A stretch of DNA of 37,986 nucleotides, taken from assembly GCA_028825115.1 (NCBI GenBank), contig JAPKAV010000009.1, positions 1 through 37,986 on the forward strand, in the 5' to 3' direction. Below, in pieces: positions 3,066 through 30,275 of the stretch. The stretch comes from Candidatus Nanopelagicales bacterium (lineage in GTDB: Bacteria > Actinomycetota > Actinomycetes > S36-B12). A program made the translations under genes and the position numbers. The notes below the pieces were generated by a model, which was not told the origin of the DNA, ran no database searches, and worked only from the letters and a program-made list of their open reading frames with translations. Numbering within the stretch: the stretch's first letter is position 1; every line of letters begins with the position of its first letter.

Positions 3066-3977
3066 ATGACTAGCCACCAAGATTCCCACCAAGGTGCGTC
3101 GTATCGAACTTTGATCTCCGCTGAAGATCTTCACTCGATAATCCATCGACGAGGGCTTGTGATTTTAGATGCAAGATTTGACATCGACTCCGAAGACCAA
3201 GCGCTGGTTAACTTTGGTCAGGGACATCTTCCGGGCGCCCGGCAGGCTGATGTCGCGGTGCACATGGCAGGTGCAATTATCCCTGGCGTGACAGGACGGC
3301 GACCATTGCCGGGGAAGTCGACATTTGCGCAAACCATTCGCGACTGGGGCATCGACGAATTATCGCAGGTTGTTATTTATGATGACATGAATGGAATCAT
3401 GGCGGCTTCGCGTTTGTGGACCATGCTCAGATGGGCGGGGTTGGAGTCGGTCGCGTTGCTCGATGGTGGATATCAAGCGTGGGTGGCGGCAGGATTCCCG
3501 CTGGACGCGGAGACGTCGGAGGTTGCTCGCACGGCCTACGATCCAAATTTTCTCGATCATGTTTATATTCACCTCCCGGAGATTCAAAAGATGAGCGAGA
3601 GTGGGGAACTCCTCATTTTTGATTCTCGCTCGCTGAGTGACGGAGTCCCCTCGCACGATGCGATCAAGGGTCACATTCCCGGGTCTCAGGCGGCAGACAG
3701 AGCATTAAATAGTGCACCAGACGGCATGAGTTGGCGGTCCAGTGAAGAATTGCGAGATCACTTTCGAGCGCTCATTGGTGAGAGAAATCCGAGTGACGTG
3801 GTGTTTTACTGCGGATCGGGTATTACCGCCGCTCAAAATGTGCTCGGAATGGCGCACGCGGGACTTGATGGGGCCCGAATGTATGTAGGTTCGTGGAGCG
3901 AATGGATCACTGATACGAGCAGAGCTATTGACGATTCTTGGGAAATTGGAGAGTCTGGCCCTGTGGCTGAAGTGTAA
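3066..3977 (+). CDS. Tandem-rhodanese sulfurtransferase
   Basis: 303 residues with two rhodanese-like domains, like SseA/TST. The N-terminal inactive domain has the LDAR...GHLPGA pattern (about 35-60) and DGGYQAW near its end. The C-terminal domain has FDSRS, GHIPGS and the active-site loop beginning with Cys249 in YCGSGITA. A six-residue loop of the CGSGIT type is usual for thiosulfate/3-mercaptopyruvate sulfurtransferases. A clear GAGGAG ribosome-binding site precedes ATG 3066. The enzyme moves sulfane sulfur from a donor to a thiophilic acceptor in the cytoplasm. Its presence inside a catabolic operon suggests that a sulfur-containing intermediate or cyanide/thiol detoxification is involved, or it may be an accessory of unrelated sulfur metabolism. 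Confidence 0.9.
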   Translation: MTSHQDSHQGASYRTLISAEDLHSIIHRRGLVILDARFDIDSEDQALVNFGQGHLPGARQADVAVHMAGAIIPGVTGRRPLPGKSTFAQTIRDWGIDELSQVVIYDDMNGIMAASRLWTMLRWAGLESVALLDGGYQAWVAAGFPLDAETSEVARTAYDPNFLDHVYIHLPEIQKMSESGELLIFDSRSLSDGVPSHDAIKGHIPGSQAADRALNSAPDGMSWRSSEELRDHFRALIGERNPSDVVFYCGSGITAAQNVLGMAHAGLDGARMYVGSWSEWITDTSRAIDDSWEIGESGPVAEV

Positions 3978-17102: not shown

Positions 17103-17125
17103 TGACCATCTAATGTGGAGGAACT

Positions 17126-17377
17126 ATGCCTGAAATTCACGAAATTGCAGCCCCATTTCCTGGAGTATTCTACCGACGCGCAGCCCCAGGTTCAGCGCCC
17201 TTGGCAGAGCCTGAACAGGTGATAGCCGTTGGTCATGTGATCGCACTTGTTGAAGTTATGAAGATGTTTCACGAAGTCCAATCGGCAGTTGCAGGCAGAA
17301 TTACAGAATTCTGCGCGGAAGATGGCGATGCTGTTGCTATGGGGCAGATAATCGCCAAAATTGAGTCTCAATCGTGA
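17126..17377 (+). CDS. accB: Biotin carboxyl carrier protein (short BCCP)
   Basis: 83 residues, essentially a bare biotinyl domain: IAAPFPGVFYRR at the N-terminus, VIAVGHVIALVEVMKMFHEVQS with the biotin-accepting Lys46 in the Met-Lys-Met motif, and GDAVAMGQIIAKIES at the C-terminus. It lacks the long Ala/Pro linker of the fatty-acid AccB, as is usual for BCCPs next to pxp genes. A GGAGG-like site (tggagga) is just upstream. It would carry CO2 on biotin between the biotin carboxylase encoded next and the PxpB-PxpC carboxyltransferase. It could alternatively serve another carboxylase, but the tight operon argues against that. Confidence 0.9.
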   Translation: MPEIHEIAAPFPGVFYRRAAPGSAPLAEPEQVIAVGHVIALVEVMKMFHEVQSAVAGRITEFCAEDGDAVAMGQIIAKIESQS

Positions 17378-21699: not shown

Positions 21700-22758
21700 A
21701 TGGAATTCGGAATTGGATTGTGGGGCATGCAGAGCACGCGGAACGCGCCCCTGTCGCATCCCACGTTGTATCGGAGATTGGCCGAAGATGCACAATTCGC
21801 CGAGCACGTGGGTTTTGAATCCTTATGGCTTACTGAGCACCGTTTTTGGTACGACGGCTACCTGCCGTCTCTTCTCACAGCTGGGGGCTACATTGCCGGG
21901 GCGACCACTCGCCTACGCATTGGCACTGGTTGCTTACTGCTCCCTCAGCATGACCCGATGCGTGTCGCTCAGGGCGTAAACACACTTGACCAGATATCCC
22001 ATGGCCGACTGGATTTCGGCGTGGCCCTTGGCTACCGTGATATTGAGTACGATGCCCTAGGTATTTCACGGAAAAAACGCGCAAGTCGCATGGAAAATGC
22101 CCTCGACATCTTGGCAGCGTCCTCCCGTGGAGCCTCTTTTGGTGAATGCAAAGCGTATTCACCCGAAAGGGGGGAGGCAGCACAATTAATTACCCCTTCG
22201 CCCGTTCAGCAACCTGTGCCAATATGGGTAGCAGCAGTTGGGGAGAAAGCTGTCGAAAGAGCCGCACGCCGGGGTCTGAACCTCCTTCTTTCAGACGCAC
22301 ATGATGATCGGCGGGCGGGTGAACTCATCGAGTTGTATCACCGAACAGCTCAATCCGCCGGAGTTGACAGCAGTAATATCAGATTCGGCATTTTGAGGTA
22401 CGTCTGGGTTGACGAGTCGGCGGCTCGAGCAGAAGCCGTTACCATCCCTCGGCTCCGCGCATTCCTATTGGAGCAACTTGGTGGTTGGCGGTACCTGTCT
22501 GACGAAAACGGAAACTCATTGGGTTTTGATCAACCGGTGGCATTGCGTAAAGCTGCAGAAGGAGTTATCCGTAACAATGCGGCGATCGGTACCCCCGACA
22601 CTGTGATTAGACGGCTTAAGAACCTTGAATCTGTTGGAGTTAACTTTATTGTGGCGCGGACACACATGGTTTCGGAGTCACCTGAGGACAGGCATCGCGC
22701 CATGGAATTGTTGGCGAGCGAAGTTGCGCCAGCGTTAAGCACAGTAGGGAGGGCATGA
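21700..22758 (+). CDS. Luciferase-like (LLM) flavin-dependent monooxygenase, first member of pair A
   Basis: 352 residues, AAGGAG 6 nt before ATG 21700. It has a TIM-barrel bacterial luciferase fold: FGIGLWGMQST (strand 1), AEHVGFESLWLTEHRFW, TRLRIGTGCLLLPQHDPMRVAQGVNTLDQISHGRLDFGVALGYRDIEYDALG and PVPIWVAAVGEKAVERAARRG. The EHRFW and QHDPMRVA positions are the usual flavin/substrate pocket residues. It needs reduced FMN from a separate reductase, which is not encoded in the window. Its stop is one base before the start of the second LLM gene, so both are translated from one mRNA and may form a LuxAB-like heterodimer. It is clearly similar to the product at 28121-29167. Confidence 0.88.
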   Translation: MEFGIGLWGMQSTRNAPLSHPTLYRRLAEDAQFAEHVGFESLWLTEHRFWYDGYLPSLLTAGGYIAGATTRLRIGTGCLLLPQHDPMRVAQGVNTLDQISHGRLDFGVALGYRDIEYDALGISRKKRASRMENALDILAASSRGASFGECKAYSPERGEAAQLITPSPVQQPVPIWVAAVGEKAVERAARRGLNLLLSDAHDDRRAGELIELYHRTAQSAGVDSSNIRFGILRYVWVDESAARAEAVTIPRLRAFLLEQLGGWRYLSDENGNSLGFDQPVALRKAAEGVIRNNAAIGTPDTVIRRLKNLESVGVNFIVARTHMVSESPEDRHRAMELLASEVAPALSTVGRA

Positions 22759-22759
22759 C

Positions 22760-23800
22760 ATGCGTTTTGGATTAGGGCCTTTTGCCGCCGAGCAAGCAGG
22801 TGCCATCTCATGGATGGAAGCGTACGAAATTGTTGGTGAAGCTGCACGCCAGGCTGATTCCACGGGATTTGATTCCGTGTGGGTTGCGGAGCGACAATTT
22901 TCGGCCGATGGGTACTGCCCGCAGCCTTTTATTGCAGCTGCGAATATTGCCGCCAAGACTGAGTCTGTCAAGATTGGTGTACTCCCTATTGCTGGGCTAA
23001 CGCACCCCCTGTATCTCGCCGAAGATGCTGTCGTCCTTGACAATCTCTCCGGGGGACGGGCAATCGTGGTGCCCATCAACGCGGCCTCGCACGAGAGGAT
23101 GGCCTACGGAATTAGCGAAGACGATTATCAGGAGCGATACCGAGAGACTATTGAAGTGCTTCTGAAGGCCTGGGCTCCGAAAGCATTTCGGCATGAAGGC
23201 AAGCATTGGACAATCCCTGCTGGACTACCTGAACATACACCGATTCCATCGGGCACTGTTTTGGTTCAGCCGCAACCGGCCCAGTTCGAACTGCCCCTCT
23301 TGATCGGTGGTTTTTGGGATTATGGAAGATCCCTGGCAGCAGAAATGGGATTACCTTTGGTTCTTGGTGCTATTTCAGATAATGATGCGCTACGTTCTTT
23401 GTGGTCTGAGTACGATGCGGTGGCACCTGCAGCCGCGCGTCGCCCGAAGATGCTAATTCGCGACGTGTACGTTTCAGCCAATGACGATCCCTTGTCTGAA
23501 GTTGCTGACATGGTTTCTTACCAATTTAAGCGGTATTCGGACTGGGGAATGTGGCAGGGTGATCCTGCTGATGTTGCGGGATTGAGCAGGTCTTCATTGA
23601 TTGTTGGCAATCCTGAACAAGTAATTGAACAGATCGCCGCACTAGATTCAGTGAACGGTCTCGACCACCTCATCTGCCGCATGCATTTTCCTGGCATGCC
23701 GCTTCATCAATTGTTGGCTTCGATGTCCCTGTTCAGTCGCGAGGTTATTCCTGAGTTCCGTATGCCAGATTTACCAAAGCAGATTCGCAGAGGTATCTAA
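22760..23800 (+). CDS. Luciferase-like (LLM) flavin-dependent monooxygenase, second member of pair A
   Basis: 346 residues, ATG 22760, translationally coupled to the preceding LLM gene. Motifs are MRFGLGPF, STGFDSVWVAERQFSADGYCPQPF, ESVKIGVLPIAGLTHPLYLAEDAVVLDNLSGGRAIVVPINA, QPAQFELPLLIGG and a C-terminal HFPGM...IPEFRMPD. It aligns by eye with the product at 29196-30275 far better than with its own neighbour, which shows that the two-gene unit was duplicated as a block. By analogy with LuxB it could be the non-catalytic or accessory chain, although the ERQF pocket motif is retained. The substrate is unknown. Confidence 0.88.
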   Translation: MRFGLGPFAAEQAGAISWMEAYEIVGEAARQADSTGFDSVWVAERQFSADGYCPQPFIAAANIAAKTESVKIGVLPIAGLTHPLYLAEDAVVLDNLSGGRAIVVPINAASHERMAYGISEDDYQERYRETIEVLLKAWAPKAFRHEGKHWTIPAGLPEHTPIPSGTVLVQPQPAQFELPLLIGGFWDYGRSLAAEMGLPLVLGAISDNDALRSLWSEYDAVAPAAARRPKMLIRDVYVSANDDPLSEVADMVSYQFKRYSDWGMWQGDPADVAGLSRSSLIVGNPEQVIEQIAALDSVNGLDHLICRMHFPGMPLHQLLASMSLFSREVIPEFRMPDLPKQIRRGI

Positions 23801-23843
23801 ATTGCATCTAATTTTACGTCACTTTTGAGTCTTAGGAATTTTC

Positions 23844-24179
23844 GTGCAAAGTGATGTTTACCGTGTCGGTGGGGTTCGCACTCCTTTTCGAAAACATCGA
23901 GCTGGCTTCTCCGGGATGTGGCCCGACGATGCCGCGGCCTCAAATATAGAGAGAATAATTGAGGTAGGCGGTGTGGTAGGCGGGGCGACAGGTCAAATTA
24001 ATACCGGTCACAGTTATCAGGTCGGCCCGACTGGAACCGGGAATCTCTTCGGGGCATCCGGTACTCGGTTGGTTTCCACCCTGGCACGAGAATTACGTAA
24101 AAATGATGGTCAGTATTCACTGATCACGAGGTGCTTTGGTGGAGGCCAAGGTGGATCTTGCTTGCTGGAGCGGCAATGA
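23844..24179 (+). pseudogene. Internally deleted thiolase (N- and C-terminal ends fused)
   Basis: 111 residues from GTG 23844, with AGGA upstream. Residues 5-30 (VYRVGGVRTPFRKHRAGFSG...PDDAAA) match a thiolase N-terminus. Residues from about 67 (LFGASGTRLVSTLARELRKNDGQYSLITRCFGGGQGGSCLLER) match its C-terminus, with the Cys of CxGGGQG retained. About 280 residues that should lie between are missing, including the nucleophilic Cys near residue 90 and a normal GHP motif with the catalytic His; a filler segment with GQINTGHSYQVGPTGTG replaces them. It cannot be an active thiolase. The frame is intact and its stop overlaps the next start (ATGA), so it still couples translation to the CoA-transferase gene. 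Confidence 0.8.
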
Positions 24180-25366
24180 CAAATCACGCGCGTCCACTTG
24201 CAGGTATAAAGGTCTTAGAAATGGGCGCACTTGTGGCGGCGCCTTTCTGCGGAATGCTTCTCGCGGACATGGGTGCTGAAGTTATTAAACTTGAACCGCC
24301 AGAAGGTGATATGGCCAGACAATTTGCCCCCTTTGTGTCTGGGGAAAGCGCGTTCTTCATGGCGGTTAATCGAGGCAAGCGAGGATTGACTCTCAACTTG
24401 AAAGATCCCCAGGACCTGGCTACTGCTCGAGAGATCGCTTCGCACGTCGATGTTGTGATTCACAACTATCGAACAGGCGTTGCTGAACGCCTCGGGCTTG
24501 CTTATCCGGATCTTTGCGCTCTTCATCCGGGGCTTGTTTACTGCGCTGTTTCAGGTTACGGACCTACCGGTCCGATGGCGAGTAGACCGGGGATAGATCT
24601 CCTATTTCAAGCAGAATCTGGAATGCTTGCAGTAACTGGAAGCCCTAATGGTCTTCCGGTCAAGGTGGGCACTAACGCCGCGGATGTTTACGCTGCAACT
24701 ACCGCCGCATTCGCGATCACGGCCGCTTTGTTGCAACGCGAACGGACAGGAAAAGGATCAGAAGTGCATGTCGCGCTACGTGATGCATTTGTAGCATTGC
24801 AAGCGTGTTGGGTGAGTTCGTATCTGGCAACAGGGGAACAGCCTCAGCGACTAGGGTCAGGGTCACCATTCACTGCTCCCACAGATGTATATCGAGCTAA
24901 AGATGGAGACCTTGTACTTGCGGTCGTCAACGACAGGCACTGGCAAATCCTGTGTAAGGCGCTCGGGCTTGCAGATTTAATTTCCGATCCTCGGCTAGCA
25001 ACCAACGACTCACGCGTGAAGCATGCCGAGTATTTAAGAACCCGAGTAAGTGAGGCTTTGGCTCACTGCAATGTTCAAGAATGGATCAACCTTCTTGACG
25101 TTGCAGGAGTTCCAGTGGGTCGAGTATTGGATTATGGAATGGTGTGCGACGATCCACAAATTCAGCACAACGAAATGGTTCTCGAACTTAATCACAGTCT
25201 TGCCGGAACGATTAAGGTGCAAGGATCGCCGATTTGGATAGATAGCGAAAAATGCGTGACGAGGTTTCCACCACCTGCTTTAGGCGAGCACTCCCAAGAA
25301 ATTCTTTACGAGTATGGCTGCATTACGGGAGCGGAACAGGGGAGTGATCCACGTGGGCACCTGTAA
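24176..25366 (+). CDS. CaiB/BaiF-type (class III) CoA-transferase
   Basis: 396 residues from ATG 24176, with GGAG five bases upstream inside the preceding frame. Features: PLAGIKVLEMGALVAAPFCGMLLADMGAEVIKLEPPEGD, NRGKRGLTLNLKDP, SGYGPTGPMASRPGIDLLFQAESG with the catalytic Asp141 that forms the acyl-anhydride, and the C-terminal lobe GVPVGRVLDYG. Length is normal for the family (about 380-430). It moves CoA from a donor thioester to a carboxylic acid, so it activates a substrate without ATP. It closes the first LLM operon, in parallel to the PaaK-type ligase that closes the second LLM pair. Confidence 0.92.
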   Translation: MTNHARPLAGIKVLEMGALVAAPFCGMLLADMGAEVIKLEPPEGDMARQFAPFVSGESAFFMAVNRGKRGLTLNLKDPQDLATAREIASHVDVVIHNYRTGVAERLGLAYPDLCALHPGLVYCAVSGYGPTGPMASRPGIDLLFQAESGMLAVTGSPNGLPVKVGTNAADVYAATTAAFAITAALLQRERTGKGSEVHVALRDAFVALQACWVSSYLATGEQPQRLGSGSPFTAPTDVYRAKDGDLVLAVVNDRHWQILCKALGLADLISDPRLATNDSRVKHAEYLRTRVSEALAHCNVQEWINLLDVAGVPVGRVLDYGMVCDDPQIQHNEMVLELNHSLAGTIKVQGSPIWIDSEKCVTRFPPPALGEHSQEILYEYGCITGAEQGSDPRGHL

Positions 25367-26413: not shown

Positions 26414-27208
26414 ATGATGCAAAGGGAACTGAAAGATATCACCTATGTCGTGGACCGGGGGTTGGCATGGATCACTATTAACCGACCTGAACGGCTCAAT
26501 GCATTCTCAGCCAACACCATTGACGAATTGATCCACGCCTTCAAGGTCGCTTGGGGAGACTCGACAGTTGGGGTAGTAGCGCTTACCGGTGCTGGCGATA
26601 AGGCCTTTTGCGTGGGTGGAGATCAGAAGCAGCGCCAACAAACGGGTGATTACGGACCGAGTGACTATGGCGTGTTCCAGGACGAATACCTACAGCGGGT
26701 AATCAGGGACATTCCTAAACCTGTCATTGCGGCCGTCAATGGTTACGCAATAGGCGGAGGGCAAGTTTTGCATGTTGTCTGTGACTTATCGATTGCTGCA
26801 GCGCATGCCGAATTCGGTCAAGCCGGCCCCAGAGTCGGTTCCTTTGATGCAGGATTTGGAACCGCCTACCTCGCTCGAATTGTCGGAGCACGCCGAGCAC
26901 GTGAAATTTGGTTTTTGTGCCGCCGCTATTCAGCGCAACAGATGATGGACTGGGGGCTGGTTAACGCAGTTGTTCCGTTCGAGCGGTTACATGAGGAAGT
27001 ACGAGCGTGGGCCGATGAAATGTTGGCGTTGAGTCCAACCGCGCTACGGATTGTGAAGCATTCGTTCAATGCGGACAGTGAGTCAATTGCGGGGATTTCC
27101 ACGATGGCCTTTGATGCCCTGGGTGTTTTCACGGGGACTCCTGAATCGAAAGAAGGAGTAAACGCATTTGTAGAGAAACGTTCTCCGAACTTCGAGGGCT
27201 ACCGTTGA
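26414..27208 (+). CDS. Crotonase-family enzyme of the MenB/BadI type (predicted ring-opening hydrolase)
   Basis: 264 residues; AGGAGG is at 26403-26408 and ATG at 26414 (a second ATG follows at once). Crotonase core: GDKAFCVGGDQKQR (oxyanion Gly68-Gly69), NGYAIGGGQ (114-116), FGQAGPRVGSFDAGFG with Ser143 and Asp145, REIWFLCRRYSAQQMMDWGLVN, SPTALRIVKHSFNAD and EGVNAFVEKRSPNF. These blocks are those of DHNA-CoA synthase MenB and of BadI, which hydrolyses 2-ketocyclohexanecarboxyl-CoA. Q136-x-G138 is the bicarbonate-type MenB pattern. No menaquinone gene is near, while a 3-hydroxyacyl-CoA dehydrogenase directly follows; this fits oxidation of a cyclic beta-hydroxyacyl-CoA and then retro-Dieckmann opening, as in the BadH-BadI step. 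Confidence 0.85.
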   Translation: MMQRELKDITYVVDRGLAWITINRPERLNAFSANTIDELIHAFKVAWGDSTVGVVALTGAGDKAFCVGGDQKQRQQTGDYGPSDYGVFQDEYLQRVIRDIPKPVIAAVNGYAIGGGQVLHVVCDLSIAAAHAEFGQAGPRVGSFDAGFGTAYLARIVGARRAREIWFLCRRYSAQQMMDWGLVNAVVPFERLHEEVRAWADEMLALSPTALRIVKHSFNADSESIAGISTMAFDALGVFTGTPESKEGVNAFVEKRSPNFEGYR

Positions 27209-28044: not shown

Positions 28045-28120
28045 AAGTGCTTGCTGGAGGGGCGATTTGACTCTACAGTTTGGTTAATACCTACCGGAGT
28101 TAGTACTAGGGAGCGTGGTT

Positions 28121-29167
28121 ATGGGTAAACTTGAAGTTGGCGTCGGCATTTGGAGTATGCAGTCCACGAAGCAGGGTCCGCGACACTTTTCGTATCTTTA
28201 CAAAGAGCTGATGGAGGATGCGCAGTACTGCGATGAATTGCAAACAATTAAGACGATCTGGCAAACGGAGCATCACTTCTGGTACGACGGTTACTCACCG
28301 GCCCTACTTACGGTGGCTGGCGGTATTGCCGCGGCAACTAAGCACATCAAAATTGGACAATCCACCATGCTGTTCAGCCAGCATGAGGCGCTGCGTGTTG
28401 CGACTCAAGCAGCGGTCGTTGACCAACTCTCAGGCGGCAGACTTGAACTTGGTCTAGGTTTGGGCTACCGAGACAACGAATTCGACGGATTCAACATCGA
28501 CAGGCGCAAGCGCAGGATTCGTTTTGAAGAAGGCATCGAGGTTTTGCGGCGTTCCTGGAGTAACGATCCGGTGAATTTTCACGGCAAGCAATTTGACGTG
28601 CCTGATGTCTCAGTGACCCCCAAACCATTCCAATCAGACGTGCCGATCTGGGTAGCAGCAGTGGGACCGGAGCCTATTAAGCGTGCGGCAAAATTGGGAG
28701 TATCGATTATCCTCTCCGACGCGCTAACCCTTGACCAATTAAGTGAACACATCGAGCTTTACCACAAAACTGCACAGGAATATGGCGTAGATGTTTCCAC
28801 AGCAAAGATGGGAGTGCTGCGCCGAGGATGGGTTGCTGAAACAGATGATGATGCTTACCAAAATGCGCTGAAGTCCCTGCGATTCTTGTTGCGGGATCAA
28901 CTTGGCGGCTGGCGGTATCTCAAAGACGAAAATGGTGAGTCCGTCGGTTTTGATACGCCTGACAAACTGGACGCAGCGGCGGCAAAGCTCGTCACCGTAC
29001 ACGAGCGCACCATTGGCCGGCCCGAAAAAGTTACACGAGGTTTAAGGGAAATCGCAGCAACAGGTTGTGATCACATTATTTTTGGTACCCGATTTGACTC
29101 GCTTCCGCGCCAGAAGTACTTGCGCTCACTTGAATTGCTCGCGACCGAAGTTATCCCGAATATTTAA
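28121..29167 (+). CDS. Luciferase-like (LLM) flavin-dependent monooxygenase, first member of pair B
   Basis: 348 residues from ATG 28121 (AGGGAG at 28108-28113; GTG at 28115 is less likely). Closely parallel to the product at 21700-22758: VGIWSMQSTKQGP, QTEHHFWYDGYSPALLT, HIKIGQSTMLFSQHEALRVATQAAVVDQLSGGRLELGLGLGYRDNEFDGFN, DVPIWVAAVGPEPIKRAAKLG and DQLGGWRYLKDENGESVGFD, the last almost identical in both. The shared GGWRYL(K/S)DENG block implies the same fold detail and perhaps related substrates. It requires reduced flavin. The gene follows the dehydrogenase with a 76-bp gap that could hold a second promoter. It starts the second two-gene LLM module. Confidence 0.88.
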   Translation: MGKLEVGVGIWSMQSTKQGPRHFSYLYKELMEDAQYCDELQTIKTIWQTEHHFWYDGYSPALLTVAGGIAAATKHIKIGQSTMLFSQHEALRVATQAAVVDQLSGGRLELGLGLGYRDNEFDGFNIDRRKRRIRFEEGIEVLRRSWSNDPVNFHGKQFDVPDVSVTPKPFQSDVPIWVAAVGPEPIKRAAKLGVSIILSDALTLDQLSEHIELYHKTAQEYGVDVSTAKMGVLRRGWVAETDDDAYQNALKSLRFLLRDQLGGWRYLKDENGESVGFDTPDKLDAAAAKLVTVHERTIGRPEKVTRGLREIAATGCDHIIFGTRFDSLPRQKYLRSLELLATEVIPNI

Positions 29168-29195
29168 CATGTTCAATTGGTGATTGGAGAAAATT

Positions 29196-30275
29196 ATGCG
29201 TTTCGGACTGGGGCCCATGACATTGGAGTCGGTGCAGGGTTGGCGCTGTGCTGGCTGCCGTAAGCCAGCTAGTGGCTGTTGCGGCCGCAAACAAGTAGAC
29301 ATTTATGAAGAGGTTTTAGAACATGCAGTGACAGCGGAGTGGTGGGGGTTCGACTCCGTTTGGGTTGATGAACGGCACTTCACGCCGGACTCTTTCAATT
29401 CGTCAGCGTCGGTCGTGGCGGCTGGACTTTCACAAAGAACAGAATTTGTGCGAGTGGGAATGATGCCGGTCCTTGGCTTGGTAAATTCGATTTACGTCGC
29501 CGAGGAAGTCGCTTGCATTGACAACATCAACGCGGGCCGAACAATCGTCGCAGGCCAAGTGCCAAATGATGAGACCGTTCGCGGCTGGGCTGGTTCGGGA
29601 GCTTCAAACTCTGCCGATCGTATCGTTGATGACATCGCCGTCCTGCGAAAAGCATGGGGGCCAAATCCATTCTCGCACCACTCAGCGTTTCACAACATCC
29701 CCATGAATAATGAAGAGATTCACGTTCAGGCAAGGGGCCTAGATCGCATTTCGGTGCAGCCCAAGCCCGCTCAATTAGATATGCCGCTGTGGATGTCCGG
29801 TGGGACCGAGGCAGCTGAGGTTGCACGGCGAACCGGTATTCCGTACATGGCCCCCGGCCATTTGACTCTAGAGCAAATGCGTCCGTTGTACGAAGGATTA
29901 AATCCAACTTTTGAACGAGTCGTCCCTTTAATTCGTGATGTTTTCATTGCGCCAACAACGGACGAGGCGCAACGCCTGGCCGGAGCTGCCATTCGTGATT
30001 TGTACAACGCACAAATGCGTGCCGGCCTAGAACTGTCATCATCGGAATTTGACAAACTTGTAATGGACACGATCATTATCGGGGATCCAGACACATGTAT
30101 TGAGCGGTTGTACGGCTACGAACGAGAGTTGGGCGTGAATTATGTAGTTGCACGCTTGGCCTACCACAATATGCACCCGGGAGACACGGCCCGCGCAATT
30201 CAATTGTTCGGCCAGGGCGTCGTTCCAGAGTTTCGAATGTTCGGTCTTCCCGACGAAATCCGGAAGGTGGTATGA
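29196..30275 (+). CDS. Luciferase-like (LLM) flavin-dependent monooxygenase, second member of pair B, with a Cys-rich insertion
   Basis: 359 residues from ATG 29196 (GGAG at 29186-29189). It parallels the product at 22760-23800: MRFGLGPM, WGFDSVWVDERHFTPDSF, EFVRVGMMPVLGLVNSIYVAEEVACIDNINAGRTIV, QPKPAQLDMPLWMSGG and VPEFRMFGLPD. Between strand 1 and helix 1 it has about 15 extra residues (about 15-32) with Cys18, Cys21, Cys28 and Cys29 in a CxxC-x6-CC arrangement plus several basic residues. This insertion is absent from its paralogue. It lies at the barrel mouth, where the substrate pocket is in LLM enzymes, so it could bind a metal or alter specificity. The underlying DNA contains an inverted repeat. 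Confidence 0.87.
   Translation: MRFGLGPMTLESVQGWRCAGCRKPASGCCGRKQVDIYEEVLEHAVTAEWWGFDSVWVDERHFTPDSFNSSASVVAAGLSQRTEFVRVGMMPVLGLVNSIYVAEEVACIDNINAGRTIVAGQVPNDETVRGWAGSGASNSADRIVDDIAVLRKAWGPNPFSHHSAFHNIPMNNEEIHVQARGLDRISVQPKPAQLDMPLWMSGGTEAAEVARRTGIPYMAPGHLTLEQMRPLYEGLNPTFERVVPLIRDVFIAPTTDEAQRLAGAAIRDLYNAQMRAGLELSSSEFDKLVMDTIIIGDPDTCIERLYGYERELGVNYVVARLAYHNMHPGDTARAIQLFGQGVVPEFRMFGLPDEIRKVV
29250..29269. repeat. Inverted repeat inside the Cys-rich insertion of the LLM gene
   Basis: GCTGGCT (29250-29256) and AGCCAGC (29263-29269) are perfect inverted arms around GCCGTA; a further TGGCT follows at 29273-29277. The surrounding ~45 bp encode the residues that the paralogous LLM protein lacks, so this may be the trace of a small hairpin insertion that was domesticated in frame. 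Confidence 0.7.

Follow-up and report, generated by a model that had tools for sequence, protein, structure and literature searches.

A thiolase remnant shared by two species appears to drift neutrally, yet its frame remains open upstream of a CoA-transferase gene

The window analysed here, the whole stretch of 37,986 nucleotides, is contig C107 from a genome of 2.18 Mb (G000; 144 contigs, 77.5% complete), which is most likely a metagenome assembly. Between a luciferase-like monooxygenase gene and a family III CoA-transferase gene it carries a frame of 111 codons, which a preliminary description read as the two ends of a thiolase joined together. This locus raises two questions: whether such a frame still encodes a working protein, and why it is open. 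The neighbouring genes encode luciferase-like monooxygenases, the CoA-transferase, a TrmB-type regulator, a MenB/BadI-like protein, a 3-hydroxyacyl-CoA dehydrogenase and a PaaK-like ligase, a gene set that suggests an operon for the breakdown of a CoA-activated compound. The luciferase-like monooxygenase genes form two tandem pairs (window 21700–23800 and 28115–30275) within this single operon, and all of them are under strong purifying selection. The locus was compared with those of a second (G009) and a third (G004) species of the genus. The features are as follows.

22760–23800, plus strand: luciferase-like monooxygenase gene upstream of the remnant, intact (dN/dS 0.10)
23834–23837, plus strand: AGGA, candidate Shine-Dalgarno of the remnant, shared with G009 and G004
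23844–24179, plus strand: thiolase remnant frame (pseudogene) of 111 codons, from a GTG start to a TGA stop; profile and Pfam matches, dN/dS about 1 against G009
23847–24029, plus strand: N-terminal thiolase part, residues 2–62 (profile positions 9–69), from the profile match
24030–24035, plus strand: deletion junction zone, where the in-frame loss amounts to about 289 residues of the thiolase (about 867 nt), from the profile match; identical junction in G009
24036–24173, plus strand: C-terminal thiolase part, residues 65–110 (profile positions 359–404), from Pfam and the profile
24167–24170, plus strand: GGAG, candidate Shine-Dalgarno of the CoA-transferase gene, within the remnant tail; identical in G009, GGAA in G004
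24176–24179, plus strand: ATGA, overlap of the remnant stop and the CoA-transferase start; ATGA in G004, TAATG (-1 overlap) in G009
24176–25366, plus strand: family III CoA-transferase gene, intact (dN/dS 0.15)
26414–27208, plus strand: MenB/BadI-like crotonase-fold gene, intact (dN/dS 0.14; G004 ortholog 89% identical)

The thiolase profile was made from 18 thiolase-locus sequences, each represented by its longest frame with GHP, a few of which may include extra or wrong-frame residues. Residues 2–62 of the remnant match positions 9–69 of this profile and residues 65–110 match positions 359–404 of 405, all in one frame, with 53 bits and an E value of 6.5e-18 in a six-sequence test set, far above chance. 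The remaining reading frames of the remnant region gave no significant match to the thiolase profile. Pfam recognised no more than the final 46 positions of Thiolase_C, over residues 65–110 (2.6e-09). A working thiolase has Thiolase_N (PF00108) and Thiolase_C (PF02803) over about 390 residues, of which the remnant covers only the two profile segments. These matches bear out the picture of a thiolase cut to its two ends in one open frame, and the ribosome-binding site and the ATGA overlap are intact as described before. A single in-frame loss would account for the remnant; the profile puts it at about 289 residues, close to the earlier figure of about 280, and it includes the active-site Cys.

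The roles of the nucleophilic Cys, the NEAF and GHP motifs and the last Cys in thiolase catalysis are well established. In the remnant the nucleophilic Cys and the NEAF Asn are both deleted, and GHP is replaced by GNL in both G000 and G009, so that the His is changed. The C-terminal catalytic Cys is kept in the G000 remnant (residue 97) and is Arg in G009. Since its comparison with G009 detects no constraint on the amino acids, the remnant makes no functional thiolase and probably no functional protein of any kind.

An intact thiolase, which the preliminary description had proposed to look for in related strains, is present in G004 (C160) between the same two genes, with an ATGA over the CoA-transferase start. 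It carries the RLCASG, NEAF, GHP and C-x-G-x-GQG motifs when aligned to the solved thiolase 8gqh; its nearest solved relatives are 8gqh and the beta-ketoadipyl-CoA thiolase 6pca. At the position of the remnant's GTG start, G004 has ATT at the same spacing from AGGA (L024, about 3156–3168, minus strand), and its thiolase may start at this ATT or at a GTG four codons on. The G004 gene resembles the remnant in its place between monooxygenase and CoA-transferase, its ribosome-binding site, the ATGA overlap and 40–47% identity over the ends. In contrast to the remnant, where about 289 residues are absent together with the active-site Cys and NEAF, and where GNL stands in place of GHP, it encodes a whole protein with the catalytic residues. 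The two remnants are 47% and 40% identical to it, and the flanking proteins 79–84%. The syntenic intact ortholog and the significant similarity at both ends identify the remnant as a thiolase by descent.

In G009 the same slot holds a remnant of 106 residues with the same junction, 73% identical to that of G000, on a separate contig of 149.8 kb. The two remnants differ by a single gap of 12 bp, which was most likely lost in G009 because the match of G000 to the thiolase profile runs through this place without interruption. Because G004 keeps such a gene in the slot, the ancestral state is read as an intact thiolase gene overlapping the CoA-transferase gene, and the deletion would be older than the split of G000 and G009. 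The earlier suggestion of a recent deletion does not stand, since G009 shares junction and synteny; the synonymous divergence of the two species is about 0.15. The operon was found in 3 of the 12 genomes of the genus, in none of the 73 further genomes of the family that were searched, and only in G000 and G009 among 395 genomes drawn from the class. The remnant itself was found only in G000 and G009, not as a 111-residue protein conserved in many species. When the genome contigs were scanned with the remnant, three loci appeared. Two of them match residues 61–109 only, in keeping with ordinary thiolase C-termini, and the third (L022) was rejected as a relative because the matching region lies in unrelated frames.

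Between G000 and G009 the remnant has a dN of 0.147 and a dS of 0.171 (omega 0.86–1.03 by codon comparison), and the change at codon positions 1, 2 and 3 is similar (0.17, 0.11 and 0.13). With a transition bias (kappa) of 3.3, omega is 1.03 with a 95% CI of 0.53–2.15, an interval that is wide because it comes from two remnant sequences only and that is compatible with weak constraint (about 0.5). In contrast, 14 flanking genes have dN of 0.008–0.036 and omega of 0.06–0.26, which indicates purifying selection; their dS is mostly 0.08–0.20, and 0.32 for the ABC gene. Nonsynonymous changes make up 31 of the 44 in the remnant (P = 9e-6 under an omega of 0.26), and polarisation by G004 assigns 23 changes to G009 and 12 to G000. 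Because the dN/dS of the remnant is about 1 while all 14 neighbours are constrained, the remnant appears to be a pseudogene with an amino-acid sequence that drifts neutrally, and no purifying selection was seen on it. Its frame is not disrupted: it is open in G000 and G009, with the large in-frame deletion and the 12-bp indel only. Disruption is usual in pseudogenes but not required, and the open frame does not bar this status because the deletion itself takes the active site. Bacterial pseudogenes likewise lose function, after which their protein sequence changes neutrally (Kuo and Ochman 2010, PMC2916853). The remnant differs from them in its persistence, as two species share it, and in a frame that is still open from start to stop.

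Within the remnant, 56 nt (24035–24090) are identical in G000 and G009, above expectation (permutation P 0.005, post hoc). An RNA element at this block or at the CoA-transferase start was considered and rejected, since the folds were no better than those of shuffles in G000 and G009 and no Rfam match was found.

A fragmented assembly such as that of G000 might hide a full-length thiolase through collapse or chimerism, as the preliminary description had cautioned. This is extremely improbable because G009 shares junction and synteny: the identical junction lies on an independent contig from the MAG of another species, and neutral divergence flanks it on both sides, beyond what a collapse can generate. 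The retained ribosome-binding site, the open frame and the 56-nt block would suit a functional miniprotein of 111 residues, for example a regulator or partner made from the thiolase ends. However, dN/dS rules against it, the last Cys and the thiolase-like GQG are gone in G009, the two products have diverged to 73% identity as against 92–98% in the neighbours, and the genomes searched give full thiolases as its sole relatives, so that we regard such a product as very unlikely. It is also unlikely that the thiolase was lost since the MenB/BadI-type ring-cleaving hydrolase assumed its step, as had been supposed. This hydrolase is in the same operon and under purifying selection, but G004 holds an intact thiolase as well as the hydrolase (89% identical), the latter with its dehydrogenase and monooxygenase neighbours. 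Moreover, in G000 and G009 a paralogous thiolase gene lies directly 5' of a paralogous, 59–62% identical MenB/BadI-like gene, and the pair is often together. Redundancy with another thiolase would be a simpler cause of the loss; both G000 and G009 have additional thiolases, and in G000 there are six other strong thiolase places, not counting a split gene on contig C7.

The pseudogene reading is shared by the explanation that the remnant is fully neutral debris, open in both species by pure luck, to which we give slightly less than an even chance. Single changes rarely create a stop in the remnant (2–3.5%). In a neutral simulation with 50 substitutions, conditioned on an open G000 frame, the G009 frame was open in about 23% of the runs, and another substitution-only simulation left the second frame open in 22–37%. 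However, the only indel in the remnant is 12 bp long, although 1-bp indels exist in the adjacent spacers. The spacers compared contain four indels, each of 1 bp and frameshifting, which is a rough rate from four events that includes the possibly coding 17103–17373 and the TrmB–MenB pair with unequal boundaries. With indel:substitution ratios of 0.02–0.074, the joint chance of openness falls from about 0.12 to about 0.01, and it is about 1–4% once frameshifting indels at the spacer rate are included. The low identity to G004 (40–47%) suggests a long shared stem of the two remnants. Such a stem reduces the chance further, to 2–7% with 60 extra shared-stem events and substitutions alone. Openness would thus be mildly to moderately improbable under full neutrality.

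The comparison suggests, without proving it, selection for translatability through coupling to the CoA-transferase gene. That active selection keeps the frame open is, in our estimate, nearly an even proposition. Somewhat more tentatively, the pseudogene may be selected only for readability, its residues drifting while stops and frameshifts are purged for the start of the next gene and for protection of the operon mRNA. The earlier idea that the frame survives for coupling accordingly stands as the best guess for its openness, with a neutral chance of about 1–12%, and falls short of proof. The stop and start overlap as ATGA in G000 and G004 and as TAATG in G009; where G000 has CAA and the TGA stop, G009 has TAA, and the overlap changes from -4 to -1. 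These are the commonest forms of gene overlap, with coupled translation (Huber et al. 2023, PMC10666635), and in E. coli 15 nt of the upstream gene's 3' end are enough for termination-reinitiation (PMC10666635). The present pair resembles those coupled pairs in its -4 (G000, G004) or -1 (G009) overlap and in the GGAG or GGAA in the upstream tail. In contrast to them, the upstream member here is a pseudogene and the coupling is putative. The CoA-transferase gene owns the GGAG site, so coupling may be dispensable. A consensus scan of the region found no internal promoter, and the single terminator-like site equals the count expected by chance. A literature search, mostly without subscription journals, found no direct precedent for pseudogenes kept open for coupling.

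Taken as a whole, we consider it quite probable that the remnant is an old pseudogene, formed by an ancestral in-frame deletion and drifting neutrally, with a frame most likely kept translatable for the CoA-transferase. The thiolase gene would have stood between monooxygenase and CoA-transferase in a catabolic operon until its middle, roughly 870 nt, was lost in frame through a single deletion in the ancestor that G000 and G009 share. Drift would then have followed, for which the comparison detects no amino-acid constraint. The 3' end of the remnant still carries the candidate ribosome-binding site of the CoA-transferase gene and the stop/start overlap. Ribosomes may traverse the remnant, reinitiate at the CoA-transferase gene and shield the operon mRNA, and the thiolase step is presumably taken by other thiolases encoded in the genome.

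An in-frame deletion followed by neutral decay is an ordinary event; the before/after comparison is unusually clean, and the uncommon point is a frame that is unconstrained yet open. The three genomes give the state before (G004) and after (G000, G009) the loss of one enzyme from an operon with its translation layout kept. If the frame is kept open regardless of its sequence, an open frame in an operon is no evidence for a small protein with a function, and a dN/dS check would be needed for short annotated proteins like this one.

Two minor observations concern the other thiolase genes. Thiolase genes directly before a MenB/BadI-like gene were seen in G000 at L064 2–1899, L062 6878–8601 and L063 (up to three copies or variant forms, located where contigs end) and once in G009 (L065 4348–6620). 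The thiolases beside the MenB/BadI-like paralogs lie on contigs C43, C30 and C6 of G000 and on C11 of G009. On contig C7 of G000 (about 53548–54665; L067 1549–2663) a thiolase gene is divided over two frames, while its G009 counterpart (L068) is intact; it is either a second broken thiolase of G000 or a sequencing error.
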